A stretch of DNA of 64,000 bases from positions 1,116,001-1,180,000 of the forward strand of contig CP108997.1 of assembly GCA_036226585.1 (NCBI GenBank), given 5' to 3'. The DNA is from Streptomyces sp. NBC_00708. Its GTDB lineage: Bacteria; Actinomycetota; Actinomycetes; Streptomycetales; Streptomycetaceae. Below are positions 4,851-48,727 of this stretch, in pieces; within the stretch, counting starts at the first letter, position 1; each line of letters opens with the position of its first letter. The notes beneath the pieces are model-generated. The model saw only the letters and a program-made list of their open reading frames with translations. It had not been told where the DNA came from and ran no database searches. The position numbers and the translations under genes were made by a program.

Positions 4851-5519
4851 TCAGGAGGTGCGGCCCCGGCGGGCCAGCAGGCGTACGGCGAGGTCGCCGA
4901 TCAGCTGGACGAGGGTCACGATGACGATCAGCAGCGCGACGGTGATGAGCATGAAGCGGTTGTCGAAGCGCTGGAATCCGTAGGTGACGGCCTTGGAGCC
5001 GAGTCCTTCGCCGCCGACCGCGCCGGCCATCGCGGAGTAGCCGATGAGCACGATGACGGTGGTGGTGATGCCGGAGACGAGGGACGGCAGGGCCTGCGGA
5101 AGCAGGACCTTGCGGACGATCGTCGGGATGGATCCGCCCATGGACTGGACGGCCTCGACGAGCCCGTGGTCGACCTCGCGCACCGCCGTCTCGACGAGCC
5201 GGGCGAAGAACGGGATGGCGCCGACGGCGAGCGGAACGATCATCGCGGTGGGGCCGATGAAGGTGCCGACGACCCAGGTGGTGAAGGGGATCAGGGCGAT
5301 CAGCAGGATGATGAAGGGCAGCGAGCGGCCGATGTTCACGATCACGCCGACGGCCTTGTTCACCGGGGTGTTCTGGAGCAGGCCGCCCTTGTCGGTGAGG
5401 ACGAGGAGGACGCCGAGCGGCAGTCCGGCCAGGACGGTGACGACGGCGGACCACAGCACCATGTAGAGGGTGTCGACGGTGCCCTGCGTCAGCAGCGGCT
5501 GCATTTCGGACCAGGTCAC
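4851..5519 (-). CDS. metI: Methionine ABC transporter permease
   Basis: A 222-residue inner-membrane protein with about five hydrophobic helices, of the MetI family. It starts MTWSEMQPLLTQGTVDTLYM and contains the EAA loop region (EAVQSMGGSIPTIVRKVLLP), which couples to the ATPase. Its start codon overlaps the end of metN by four bases, so the two are translationally coupled. Length and sequence are typical, with nothing missing. Confidence 0.94.
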   Translation of the reverse strand: MTWSEMQPLLTQGTVDTLYMVLWSAVVTVLAGLPLGVLLVLTDKGGLLQNTPVNKAVGVIVNIGRSLPFIILLIALIPFTTWVVGTFIGPTAMIVPLAVGAIPFFARLVETAVREVDHGLVEAVQSMGGSIPTIVRKVLLPQALPSLVSGITTTVIVLIGYSAMAGAVGGEGLGSKAVTYGFQRFDNRFMLITVALLIVIVTLVQLIGDLAVRLLARRGRTS

Positions 5520-6574
5520 TTCGCCACCTCCTTGGTGAGCTGTGCGGGTACGGGGACGGGCTCGGCGTCCGTGCCGTCGACGAGCTCGGCCTGGAGGCCC
5601 TGTTCGCGCAGGAAGCCGATCGGCACGACGTTCTCCTCGAACCGGCCGGGCAGTTCGATGCGCATGCGGCCGATCTGCCGGCCGCCGACGGTGTCCATCG
5701 CGGCGCCCAGGATCGAGATGTCGATGTTGTACGTACGGGAGAGCTGCGAGATCACCGGGCGGGCGGCGGCCTCGCCGTGGAAGGTGACGTCGACGACGGT
5801 GCGGTCCGGTGCGGAGGCGGTGCCGCCGACGGGGAACAGCTCGTGGGCCAGCTCGGAGCCGGGGGTGGCGAGGAGTTCGCCGACGGTGCCGGACTCGACG
5901 ATCCGTCCGCCCCGCATCAGCGCGGCGGAGTCGCAGATCGTCTTGACGACGTCCATCTCGTGCGTGATGAGCAGGACGGTGAGGCCGAGCTGCTGGTTGA
6001 GGTCGCGCAGGAGCTGGAGGATGGAGCGGGTGGTCTCGGGGTCCAGGGCGGAGGTCGCCTCGTCGGAGAGGAGCACCTTGGGGTCGCCGGCGAGGGCGCG
6101 GGCGATCCCGACGCGCTGCTTCTGGCCGCCGGAGAGCTGACCGGGGTAGGCCTTGGCCTTGTCGGCGAGGCCGACCAGGTCGAGGAGTTCGAGGGCCTTG
6201 CGGGAGCGCTCGCGGCCGGTGACGCCGAGGATCTCCAGCGGGAGTTCGACGTTGCGCTGCACGGTGCGGGAGGCCAGCAGGTTGAAGTGCTGGAAGACCA
6301 TGCCGATACGGCTGCGCGCCTCGCGCAGCTCCTTGCCGGCCCGGCGGCCCCGGCCCGCGAGGGCGGTGAGGTCCTGGCCGGCCACGGTCACGGTGCCCGA
6401 GGTGGGGCGCTCCAGGAGGTTGACGCAGCGGATCAGCGAGGATTTGCCGGCGCCGCTGCGGCCGATGACGCCGTACACCTCGCCCTCGCGGACGTGCAGG
6501 TCGACGCCGTCCAGGGCGGTGACCTCGCGGTCGCGCGACTGGTAGACCTTTGTGAGGCCCGTCGTGGTGATCAC
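5516..6574 (-). CDS. metN: Methionine ABC transporter ATP-binding protein
   Basis: About 352 residues. Walker A is GRSGAGKSS, the signature motif LSGGQKQRVGIARAL, and Walker B LLSDEATSALDP with Glu replaced in the usual MetN pattern. The C-terminal 90 residues form the NIL/ACT-like regulatory domain that binds methionine in this family and inhibits transport (around residues 265-345, ending near VPAQLTKEVAK). I chose the GTG at 6574 (MITTTGLTKVY) because the family starts there; an in-frame ATG at 6628 would add 18 poorly conserved residues. It is first in the operon and is preceded by a long leader region containing the small ORF at 6800-6886. Confidence 0.93.
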   Translation of the reverse strand: MITTTGLTKVYQSRDREVTALDGVDLHVREGEVYGVIGRSGAGKSSLIRCVNLLERPTSGTVTVAGQDLTALAGRGRRAGKELREARSRIGMVFQHFNLLASRTVQRNVELPLEILGVTGRERSRKALELLDLVGLADKAKAYPGQLSGGQKQRVGIARALAGDPKVLLSDEATSALDPETTRSILQLLRDLNQQLGLTVLLITHEMDVVKTICDSAALMRGGRIVESGTVGELLATPGSELAHELFPVGGTASAPDRTVVDVTFHGEAAARPVISQLSRTYNIDISILGAAMDTVGGRQIGRMRIELPGRFEENVVPIGFLREQGLQAELVDGTDAEPVPVPAQLTKEVAK

Positions 6575-6640
6575 AGGATTTCCGTCACTGTCGAGTGCGC
6601 GGCGCGGTGTCCGCCGGGCACGGGGCATGCGTCCGGGGGT

Positions 6641-6667
6641 GATCCGGACGTTTCGATCGGACGTTTC
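6641..6667. repeat. Tandem direct repeat in the metN leader
   Basis: Two adjacent copies of GATCCGGACGTTTC / GATCGGACGTTTC differing by one base. They lie about 65-90 bases upstream of the metN start, within the presumed untranslated leader. They could be a protein or RNA-level regulatory element; function unknown. Confidence 0.45.
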
Positions 6668-6799
6668 CGAGCGGTCTCCCGGGGGGGCCGGGCGCGGCGG
6701 TCACCGCGGGCCGGGGCCCGTGCGGGCTCGTTCCGCCGGGTGCGGACAAACCAGGGGGGAGGGTTCTCGCTTCGGGGCGCGAGGCTCGGTCGTGGGCCC

Positions 6800-6886
6800 T
6801 CAGAAGGCGCGCATTCGACACATACAACGAGCACCGGGCGTCGTGATCGCCTCGGTCGCAAGGGTGCGGCTGCTCGTCGTGGTCAT
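6800..6886 (-). CDS. Cys/Met-rich leader peptide upstream of metNIQ (candidate attenuator ORF)
   Basis: A 28-codon frame starting at ATG 6886 (MTTTSSRTLATEA...) and ending GARCMCRMRAF just before TGA. It has no Shine-Dalgarno; an AT-rich TTTACT lies seven bases before the ATG, so it may be leaderless. The last codons are unusual for this genome: GCT CGT TGT ATG TGT CGA ATG uses Cys TGT twice and Arg CGT and CGA, which are rare here, and packs two Cys and two Met codons into five. Downstream, before metN, are GC-rich inverted repeats (for example CTCGC-N7-GCGAG). Leader peptides with clustered Cys codons attenuating sulphur genes are known in actinobacteria. The link to metNIQ is inference from position and codon content. 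Confidence 0.6.
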   Translation of the reverse strand: MTTTSSRTLATEAITTPGARCMCRMRAF

Positions 6887-7166
6887 GGGCACAAGTAAAA
6901 CAGACGTGAGCTTGCGGCCGGACCGATTGTCCGGATAGCGGACAGCGGTGGATGGTGCGGCGCCTGCACCCCGTATCGGCCGACGCATTCCGGCCACACC
7001 GCTCTGACCTGCACCGATGTGGCCGCCACCGGCCCCGTGCGGCTGTCTCCACGGCGACCGGGGCCGGTGCGCGCTGTGGTCAAGGCCACGACCACCCGCT
7101 CCTGACGGCCGCCCGGGGCGCGGGGGCGCAGACGGCGGGCGGGGCGCCCCGTAATACCCTCGGCTC
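6887..7166. promoter_or_regulatory. Divergent promoter region between the metN leader ORF and the membrane protein at 7167
   Basis: About 280 bases with no gene. On the plus side a TACCCT at 7155-7160 lies six bases before ATG 7167, the usual layout of a leaderless -10 element. On the minus side an AT-rich patch at 6893-6903 precedes the leader ORF. The middle contains a GATTGTCCGGATAGCGGACA block with partial symmetry. I see nothing else. Confidence 0.45.
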
Positions 7167-7526
7167 ATGCTCGACGCCCTGACGGTCGCGGTCGCCGCGG
7201 CCGCCCTCGCCCTCGCCGCCTGGTGCGGATACGCCGCCTACCGGGACCAGCCCACCAAGGACTGGCACTTCATCGGCATGGCCGTCGTCTCGCTGCTGGC
7301 CCTGGCGCAGCTGGTCGTGGGAATCGTGCAGCTGGCCCGCGGCGAGCGGCCCGAGCAGGGCATGACCATCTTCATCGCCTATCTGGCCGGGGCGTTCCTC
7401 GCCGTGCCGGCGGCGGGGTTCCTGTCGCTGAGCGAGCGGACCCGCTGGGGTTCGGTGACGGTGGCCGCGGGCGCGGTCGTCCTGGCCGTCCTCGAAGTAC
7501 GGCTCTACGACATCTGGGGAAGCTGA
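7167..7526 (+). CDS. Small conserved membrane protein
   Basis: A 119-residue protein with about four hydrophobic segments (around 4-24, 36-57, 66-84 and 93-112) and short charged loops such as RDQPTKDW. I recognise no enzymatic motif; it looks like one of the conserved small integral membrane proteins of streptomycetes. Transcription is probably leaderless, since TACCCT sits six bases before the ATG and there is no Shine-Dalgarno. The next gene starts three bases after its stop, so the two probably form an operon and may act together. Confidence 0.8.
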   Translation: MLDALTVAVAAAALALAAWCGYAAYRDQPTKDWHFIGMAVVSLLALAQLVVGIVQLARGERPEQGMTIFIAYLAGAFLAVPAAGFLSLSERTRWGSVTVAAGAVVLAVLEVRLYDIWGS

Positions 7527-7528
7527 CC

Positions 7529-7966
7529 GTGACCGACACCGACACCACGCAGGCGACGGCCGGCGGCGAGAAGCGGCCCTTCGACCTCGGCACCGGTCCC
7601 GGCCGCGTCCTGGTCTGGTTCTACGGCGTGTTCACCGTGGCGGCGGCGTCCCGCTCGATCGTCCAGATGATCCTGGACTTCGGCCGCGCGCCCCTGGCCT
7701 ATGTGCTGTCGGCGGTGGCCGCGCTGGTGTACGGCTTCATCACGTACTCGCTGGTGCGCGGCGGCGAACGGGCGCGCCGCACCGCGCTGGTGTGCTGCGC
7801 CGCCGAGCTGGTCGGCGTGCTGGTCGTGGGGACGTGGACGCTGGTGGAGCCGTCCGCGTTCGCCGACTCGACCGTGTGGTCGTACTGCGGCCGGGACTAC
7901 CTGTTCATCCCCGTGATCCTGCCGGTCACCGGGATGATGTGGCTGCGCCGCGCCCGTACCGCGTAA
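7529..7966 (+). CDS. Integral membrane protein, partner of the preceding gene
   Basis: About 145 residues from GTG 7529, three bases after the preceding stop. The N-terminal 24 residues are polar (TDTDTTQATAGGEKRPF), followed by four hydrophobic segments with the conserved-looking stretches WFYGVFTVAAASRS and YCGRDYLFIPVILPV. This resembles the DUF-type membrane proteins found next to small membrane partners in Streptomyces. No function can be assigned. The tight spacing suggests translational coupling with the gene at 7167. Confidence 0.8.
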   Translation: MTDTDTTQATAGGEKRPFDLGTGPGRVLVWFYGVFTVAAASRSIVQMILDFGRAPLAYVLSAVAALVYGFITYSLVRGGERARRTALVCCAAELVGVLVVGTWTLVEPSAFADSTVWSYCGRDYLFIPVILPVTGMMWLRRARTA

Positions 7967-48341: not shown

Positions 48342-48727
48342 GGATCCTCCTCGGTAGCACCACGCGACCGCCTGGCGGACAGCCACGTAACGTCTGTTTC
48401 AGACAGACCAACCGCGTCGGAGCAACAAAAATGCCCCGGACGGGACACAGGCGGGGCTCCTGGCAAACCGGAACACCGCCACGGTGAACCGCGGGGCGCA
48501 TCGGGCGGCTCCATCGTCCGTACGGAACGATGGGGACCACCTGACCGGTGACCCGCCGTCCTGGGGACGGCTAGGTGGGAGAGCGGAGCCTCCACTTGTG
48601 GGCCGGGCACATAGCTGCCCAGCCGGTCGTTACACAAGGTTAGCAGCTCGGCGGGGCGGGCACCAACCGGCCCGTGCGGGCGCTCCCGCGGGCGGAGGGC
48701 CGGCGCCGTGGGCCTATCGTAAGGCGC
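48342..48727 (-). promoter_or_regulatory. Structured infC leader and divergent promoter region
   Basis: About 385 non-coding bases. On the minus strand it carries, in transcript order, TAACCT/TTGTGT promoter-like sequence near 48630, a long GC-rich part with several inverted repeats, a terminator-like hairpin with a U-tract (48421-48457), a six-base-pair hairpin GTCTGT-N5-ACAGAC (48392-48408) and the GAGGAGG ribosome site. The plus side holds TATCGT seven bases before ATG 48728. Confidence 0.55.
48421..48457 (-). terminator. U-tailed attenuator hairpin in the infC leader
   Basis: Reading the minus strand, GCCCCG (48457-48452) pairs with CGGGGC (48438-48433), followed at once by ATTTTTGTT. 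A U-run after a GC stem is unusual in this genome, and it lies about 90 bases before the infC ribosome site, so it is a good candidate for transcription attenuation. Confidence 0.65.

Follow-up and report, generated by a model that had tools for sequence, protein, structure and literature searches.

A 28-codon leader ORF, metL, lies upstream of the methionine importer gene metN on the minus strand of the 64,000-nt stretch of Streptomyces sp. NBC_00708 DNA analysed here (the window), at 6800..6886, and encodes MTTTSSRTLATEAITTPGARCMCRMRAF. Comparison of leaders across genomes suggests that metL is probably a ribosome-stalling attenuator of metN that reads Cys and Met codons, and that the leader probably switches the importer on, via stalled ribosomes, when sulphur amino acids are short. 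The leader was present upstream of metN at 106/108 loci examined, and this recurrence, together with an excess of Cys and Met over the final 10 residues of the peptide, places metL beyond chance. If the proposal is true, a single ribosome would couple methionine import to both sulphur amino acids; leader-peptide attenuation through methionine codons is, to our knowledge, rare.

The peptide itself is already known. It was published in 2021 from S. lividans TK24 under the name MetL (SLIV_29928), encoded upstream of metNIQ (PMC8079986), and this is the same element, its peptide being identical to that of leader L141 in our set. In the text of that paper available to us the authors emphasise methionines and threonines, whereas Cys, Met and CGA codons stand out here, and the available text does not give an RNA-level constraint, a three-way junction, pairing between the leader segments D and E, the distribution or a second ORF. 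Within the limited literature collection searched, we found no published account of the leader RNA structure, of cross-order conservation of the codon end or of a second ORF. We report as new the RNA constraint, the predicted three-way junction and D:E pairing, and the recurrence of the element in another order.

Codons, frame and start of the leader ORF

The metL ORF runs from an ATG at 6886-6884 to a TGA at 6802-6800 on the minus strand, and its peptide ends in GARCMCRMRAF, encoded by GGT GCT CGT TGT ATG TGT CGA ATG CGC GCC TTC, confirming the leader ORF that a first-pass annotation of this DNA had described with this ending and these codons. Its stop lies 225 nt from the GTG of metN, the importer ATPase gene (5516..6574, minus strand; ABC_tran and NIL domains). 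This GTG (6574-6572) is most likely the metN start, and the leader is therefore 312 nt long. The next ORF after metN is a metI-like membrane component with a BPD_transp_1 domain (4851..5519, minus strand), and the nearest relatives of the window metN are from Streptomyces. The 28-aa peptide matched no family in NCBIfam and Pfam searches.

Codons 20-26 (CGT TGT ATG TGT CGA ATG CGC; 6809..6829, minus strand) are the putative regulatory codons. Of the 79 leaders that are 28 aa long, codon 21 encoded Cys in 76, codon 22 Met in 69 and codon 23 Cys in 75; codon 24 was CGA and codon 25 ATG in 78 each, and codon 26 encoded Cys in 47 and Arg in 32. The usual Streptomyces leader ending is RCMCRM[CR], and Cys23 is lost in L082 and L083. 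Reference codon usage was taken from 12,607 codons of 33 probable window genes, picked by GC3 and GC2. There TGT, CGA and CGT occurred at 0.79, 1.59 and 4.76 per 1000 codons and Cys was encoded by 86 TGC vs 10 TGT, whereas the last 10 codons of 127 distinct leaders held 250 TGT and 86 TGC, and CGA made up 127/339 of their Arg codons. The earlier remark that these codons are rare was therefore correct, and is general. It does not have to imply a tRNA shortage, since the same bases lie in or beside conserved RNA helices (see below). Across the 127 peptides the final 10 residues averaged 2.65 Cys and 1.79 Met, whereas the window genes encode 0.76% Cys and 1.55% Met; such enrichment near the stop is expected of leader-peptide attenuators.

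The 127 distinct leaders were selected by a -10-like motif, an ATG and the metN start, and an ORF was not demanded. Omitted from this set were 8/153 loci (L018, L152, L167, L170, L171, L172, L214 and L215), although L152 and L167 carry the leader ORF; L215 was an off-target match of the pattern. The ORF was closed in 127/127 leaders, with lengths of 28-37 aa, and in the 22 leaders that differ from 28 aa the reading frame was retained. CGA-ATG was in frame in 126/126 leaders having it, L161 being the exception without it. The A2 set and model R2 were built with a CGAATG-containing pattern, so the invariance of CGAATG in those sequences follows from their selection. Frame and stop are thus conserved, as for ribosome-mediated leader-peptide attenuators in general. 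The L161 leader ends RCRCCTCAR-stop, with Cys retained and every internal Met gone along with CGA-ATG, and may be a natural variant with a Cys-only response. L159 and L160 have a 37-aa ORF, with about 9 extra codons ahead of GRMCAR-stop and the frame intact.

Upstream of the ORF is a -10-like element, TGnTTTACT (6894..6902, minus strand), 7 nt before the leader ATG. TTnACT stood 6-7 nt ahead of the ATG in 89/90 distinct upstream regions, and an SD-like motif before the ATG was found in none of the 90. Judged by these motifs, the promoter layout is that of a leaderless mRNA, which bears out the initial comparison with leaderless Cys-type ORFs; a simple sigma-70 consensus scan of the region found no promoter. 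In S. lividans TK24 the leader start was mapped as leaderless by RNA-seq, according to the available text of PMC8079986. Upstream of the leader promoter lies the dyad TGTCCGGATAGCGGACA (TGTCCG-N5-CGGACA; 6928..6944, no strand assigned), of which the right half GGAC[AG] was seen in 86/90 upstream regions and the full TGTCC-N7-GGACA in 52/90. The exact dyad occurs once in the genome, at metN; allowing up to one mismatch gave 33 genome sites vs 23 in the reversed control, and no regulon was seen among them. From its sequence and position, the dyad is possibly an operator for an unknown sulphur regulator.

The conserved -10-like element and dyad just upstream would suit a reading in which translation of metL has no regulatory role and the conservation serves a promoter, operator or RNA-stability element alone. 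However, both promoter and dyad lie outside the ORF, and would leave the reading frame, stop codon and Cys/Met codons unexplained; we consider this reading extremely improbable. Two small ORFs at 7167-7526 and about 7529-7966 on the plus strand, divergent from the leader, resemble membrane proteins, the first giving only weak Pfam matches below the cut-off (DUF2231, DUF4383).

Leaderless short ORFs with Cys codons before the stop, ahead of a sulphur gene, were reportedly described in mycobacteria by Canestrari et al. 2020, who are said to have proposed a stalled ribosome at these polycysteine ORFs. By that account, metL resembles them in its leaderless start, in the Cys codons before its stop and in its place in front of a sulphur gene. 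Unlike them, it mixes Cys, Met and Arg(CGA) codons, its ORF is a frozen RNA fold and its target is a methionine importer. The consecutive Cys-codon run that is a trait of the mycobacterial ORFs is absent from the usual Streptomyces leader ending, and adjacent Cys occur in few leaders (L013, L161, L168, L200; L016, L218, L221). Attenuation, as first proposed for metN, is partly supported, in that it fits a conserved leaderless ORF with Cys/Met codons before the stop.

Constraint on the leader RNA and its predicted fold

Leader and metN divergence were compared in 40 species (741/780 pairs, the other 39 being dropped as misaligned). Four-fold sites differed by 0.8% in the leader vs 29.1% in metN, while amino acids differed by 15.6% in the leader vs 9.0% in metN. 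Differences at codon positions 1, 2 and 3 were 0.073, 0.115 and 0.052 in the leader, vs 0.064, 0.054 and 0.232 in metN. The leader RNA is constrained more than the leader peptide, and a retained frame with near-frozen third positions is the opposite of an ordinary coding sequence. It had been predicted that the peptide would be conserved while the DNA around it drifts, but the N-terminal part showed the reverse, with conserved RNA and variable amino acids. Alignment across genomes, proposed at the same time as a check, found the Cys/Met codons before the stop retained across species and in another order.

These data bear on the idea that the nascent peptide senses a small molecule and arrests the ribosome, rather than responding to tRNA shortage. 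Most leaders keep the ending [CR]RMCxx-stop with constant spacing to the stop, as such a peptide might. Against it, the residues upstream are free to vary and differ more than metN, the conservation extends beyond the amino acid to codon identity (CGA, TGT), and in-frame insertions are tolerated in the C-terminal part. We regard nascent-peptide arrest as improbable.

The fold of the leader ORF had a mean z of -3.3 relative to shuffled sequences (126 leaders), with 90% below -2. In the predicted fold the ORF is a three-way junction, in which P1 (5' strand, codons 3-5, 6872..6880; 3' strand, codons 19-21, GCT CGT TGT, 6824..6832) closes around two hairpins, P2 (codons 7-10, 6857..6868) and P3 (codons 11-18, with a bulged A, 6833..6856), all on the minus strand. 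An RNAalifold consensus of 77 diverse leaders contained P1-P3 along with the downstream hairpins H1 and H2 and the D:E pairing described below. Inverted repeats had been remarked on at first reading, and hairpins (P1-P3, H1 and H2) are present in the leader. The metL leader is in this respect a clean natural example of an ORF doubling as structured RNA. Seliverstov et al. 2005 described no conserved RNA structures upstream of actinobacterial methionine operons in the part of their paper available to us (PMC1262725).

Within Streptomyces, P1-P3 show little covariation (97.8% paired vs 97.5% shuffled; three pairs with double changes). A set of twelve leaders, which included eight of the other order, showed pairing of the first 18 nt with the 22 nt 5' of CGA above the shuffled mean in 12/12, individually significant at 0.05 in only 5/12. 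The 3' strand of L129 differs in sequence, and another closing stem forms in the MFE fold of this leader. A mutual-information scan was of little use, phylogeny and misalignment dominating it; of its top 60 pairs only columns 21-26 and 38-46 fit P2 and P3.

Strong nucleotide conservation combined with a stable junction ahead of a methionine importer gene would also be expected if the junction were the aptamer of a metabolite riboswitch (for instance for SAM or Met) and the ORF incidental. Yet the conserved columns are the paired ones (mean 0.97, 42 columns), with less conservation in the unpaired ones (0.78, 15 columns), though the bulged A35 and a few other unpaired columns are invariant. Furthermore, frame, stop and Cys/Met ending survive length changes, and the other order has an unrelated junction sequence but the same coding end. 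The leader region had no Rfam match at the gathering score, and relaxing the cut-off to E 10 added only snaR-A (E 6.7). A riboswitch seems to us very improbable. The Streptomyces-metK and Streptomyces-metH RNAs were considered and rejected, occurring once each elsewhere in the genome and being unmatched by the covariance model R1 of the leader at E up to 1. At L171 and L172, RF03063 is Streptomyces-metK and RF03076 is Streptomyces-metH, the names being swapped in the available text of PMC8079986. The window also holds a match to the Streptomyces RNA Scr1601 (RF02830) at 48426-48631 (minus strand).

From the leader stop to metN

Immediately 3' of the leader stop is GGGCCC (6794..6799), and beyond it hairpin H1, CTCGC-GCCCCGAA-GCGAG (6766..6783; these and the features that follow are on the minus strand). 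In H1, 96.2% of cells were paired, with 4 double changes in 37 sequences, and the stem takes the form CTCAC/GTGAG in L218 and L220. By eye, a pseudoknot between this GGGC and the GCCC of the H1 loop is possible, in segments that hardly vary. A C-rich spacer, possibly a rut region (6630..6765), leads to hairpin H2, GTGC.CGGCG-loop-CGCCG.GCAC (6595..6621), which is in the consensus fold and has varied forms that still pair. Between H2 and the Shine-Dalgarno region lies segment E, TCGACA (6589..6594), and the Shine-Dalgarno-like GACGGAAA of metN (6579..6586) was retained in most aligned rows. The order 3' of H2 is TCGACA-GT-GACGGAAA and then the metN GTG. Each of these leader elements is small and can be separated from the others.

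Segment D, TGTCGA (codons 23-24; 6815..6820), pairs with E in the RNAalifold consensus of the 77 leaders, at a probability of 0.77 to 0.99 and stacked on H2, 3 nt upstream of the metN SD-like box. D and E were perfectly complementary hexamers in 98/123 leaders, and in Kitasatospora L013 CGUCGA faces CCGACG (by eye). Overall 94.8% of D:E cells were paired, a level reached by 0/500 shuffles (shuffle mean 94.0), and the mean of expected pairs was 3.25 per leader, above 3 in 58% of 120.

Two further tests, one of the plain D:E duplex and one of start-region accessibility, did not single out D and count against D:E. The duplex was unexceptional (mean z -1.16 vs shuffles, 31% below -1.64), and D was among the three best windows in only 5/127 leaders. 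With D blocked, the opening energy of the metN start region fell by only 0.44 kcal/mol on average (126 leaders) and, in the window leader, from 15.0 to 8.3 kcal/mol; the effect exceeded 1 kcal/mol in 32/126, and was in the opposite sense by more than 1 kcal/mol in 18/126. Double changes were confined to one pair, in 2 cells, which 14/500 shuffles also reached, and a mismatch was retained in some clades (the L005 group, L164/L166 and L168). In the eight leaders of the other-order type, D showed no steady pairing with the final 45 nt, the expected pairs ranging from 0.0 to 9.2. We grade the support for D:E as moderate, with this counter-evidence.

From these elements we infer stalling, an amino-acid signal, a D:E switch and a direction of response, as follows. 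The metN(IQ) mRNA would start at the A of the leader AUG, as shown in print for S. lividans, and a 70S ribosome would load at this 5' AUG and read through the 28 codons. Should charged Cys- or Met-tRNA run low, the ribosome would stall on TGT ATG TGT CGA ATG YGC and cover D and the 3' strand of P1, D would be kept from E and metN would be translated. With enough sulphur amino acids, the ribosome would complete the ORF and depart, P1-P3 would refold over the start codon, and D would pair with E, abutting H2, and shut the metN start region. We rate D:E pairing as the likeliest output step of the stalling attenuator, an assignment that we make tentatively and with less than even confidence.

The main rival to this output, and a live one, is Rho-dependent transcription attenuation with the same sensor, in which Rho would load on the C-rich spacer unless the ribosome stalls near the stop; in a variant, the GGGC/H1 fold, controlled by the stalled ribosome, would block termination. 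C exceeded G in 123/123 spacers (C 47%, G 29%). A scan of the leader found no intrinsic terminator, the feature of a classical transcription attenuator, and T-runs of four or more occurred in only 6/127 leaders. The S. lividans authors likewise saw hairpins and no typical terminator (available text of PMC8079986), and Seliverstov et al. proposed Rho at mycobacterial cys leaders (PMC1262725, in the part at hand). However, the C-G excess of the spacer, 0.175, is above the metN coding mean of 0.092 yet not striking, because it is below the 95th percentile of metN coding sequence (0.22). Rho would also leave unexplained the conserved H2-E block right before the Shine-Dalgarno site. On balance we think a Rho-dependent output possible but unlikely.

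Pairing of regulatory codons with the region before the gene was also proposed for the LEU element of leuA, in which the Shine-Dalgarno region is the suggested partner and a pseudoknot is included (PMC1262725, available part). In metL the consensus fold pairs D with a hexamer close to the metN SD, but this was not seen steadily in the other order, and the LEU element has Leu codons and leuA in place of Cys/Met codons and metN. The cysS uORF motif (uORFC-8-2) also has a uORF with conserved Cys codons within a stem, but differs from metL in its intrinsic terminator and in being proteobacterial, as described in the accessible portion of PMC8632094. By analogy, metL most likely works like the mycobacterial polycysteine leaders and the LEU element.

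Distribution and a second leader ORF in another order

The 108 loci comprised 18 and a further 90, the 90 upstream regions coming from a survey of 150 genomes. A peptide pattern located the leader in 90 loci, these leaders being selected with that pattern, and covariance model R1 recovered a further 16; the leader was missing at one Agrococcus locus and at one contig end. Applied at E 0.001 to a class sample of 296 genomes, R1 matched 28/28 genomes of its own genus, Streptomyces, and none of 113 other genera. Kitasatospora (L013, L014) and Actinomadura (L016) gave weak R1 matches at the correct location, and weak matches in L063 and L064 (E 0.13-0.18) were set aside as lying more than 1.2 kb from metN. 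Short Cys/Met-ending ORFs were not found within 900 nt upstream of metN in the actinobacterial L018, L055, L063, L064 and L072.

Model R2, consisting of the coding end and H1, was run on 120 genomes of family f17 and matched 7/120 (3/68 genera), upstream of metN. The element is thus retained before metN throughout the Streptomyces of the class sample and in a second order. The seven f17 leaders and that of Actinomadura L016 have unrelated N-termini, and 8/8 end in [CR]RMCxx-stop followed by H1; by eye, they start 6-10 nt after TTnACT.

After H1, the same eight leaders (L016 and L216-L222) have a second short ORF (8/8), for example MIFVLHLLSHAPYPPGSC*. It carries H-L-L-S-[HN]-x-P-[YF]-P-P-G near its end, with synonymous sites varying and amino acids conserved, and a DNA pattern for it matched exactly the same 7/120 f17 genomes as R2. 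Among the 127 distinct leaders the motif was found only in L016; HLLS in L003, L007 and L191, without PPG, was set aside as a chance occurrence. From its sequence, the Pro-Pro-Gly is a possible arrest motif.

A more elaborate version of the stalling proposal, which we think quite unlikely, would make metL a dual sensor of sulphur amino acids, in which the leader ORF is a lock, the pioneer ribosome is timed by GGGC/H1 and f17 has a second checkpoint. The P1 closing stem would begin within a few nt of the 5' AUG, and the free leader would therefore hide its own start codon. Only a pioneer ribosome, loaded co-transcriptionally, would read the leader, and the GGGC and H1 fold behind the stop would time it over the Cys-Arg(CGA)-Met-Cys codons. 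A stall would then decide metN production once per transcript, with the second leader ORF of f17 as an added checkpoint on the same mRNA. Among the leaders of this second order, L221 has more than one possible start and that of L222 starts with GTG.
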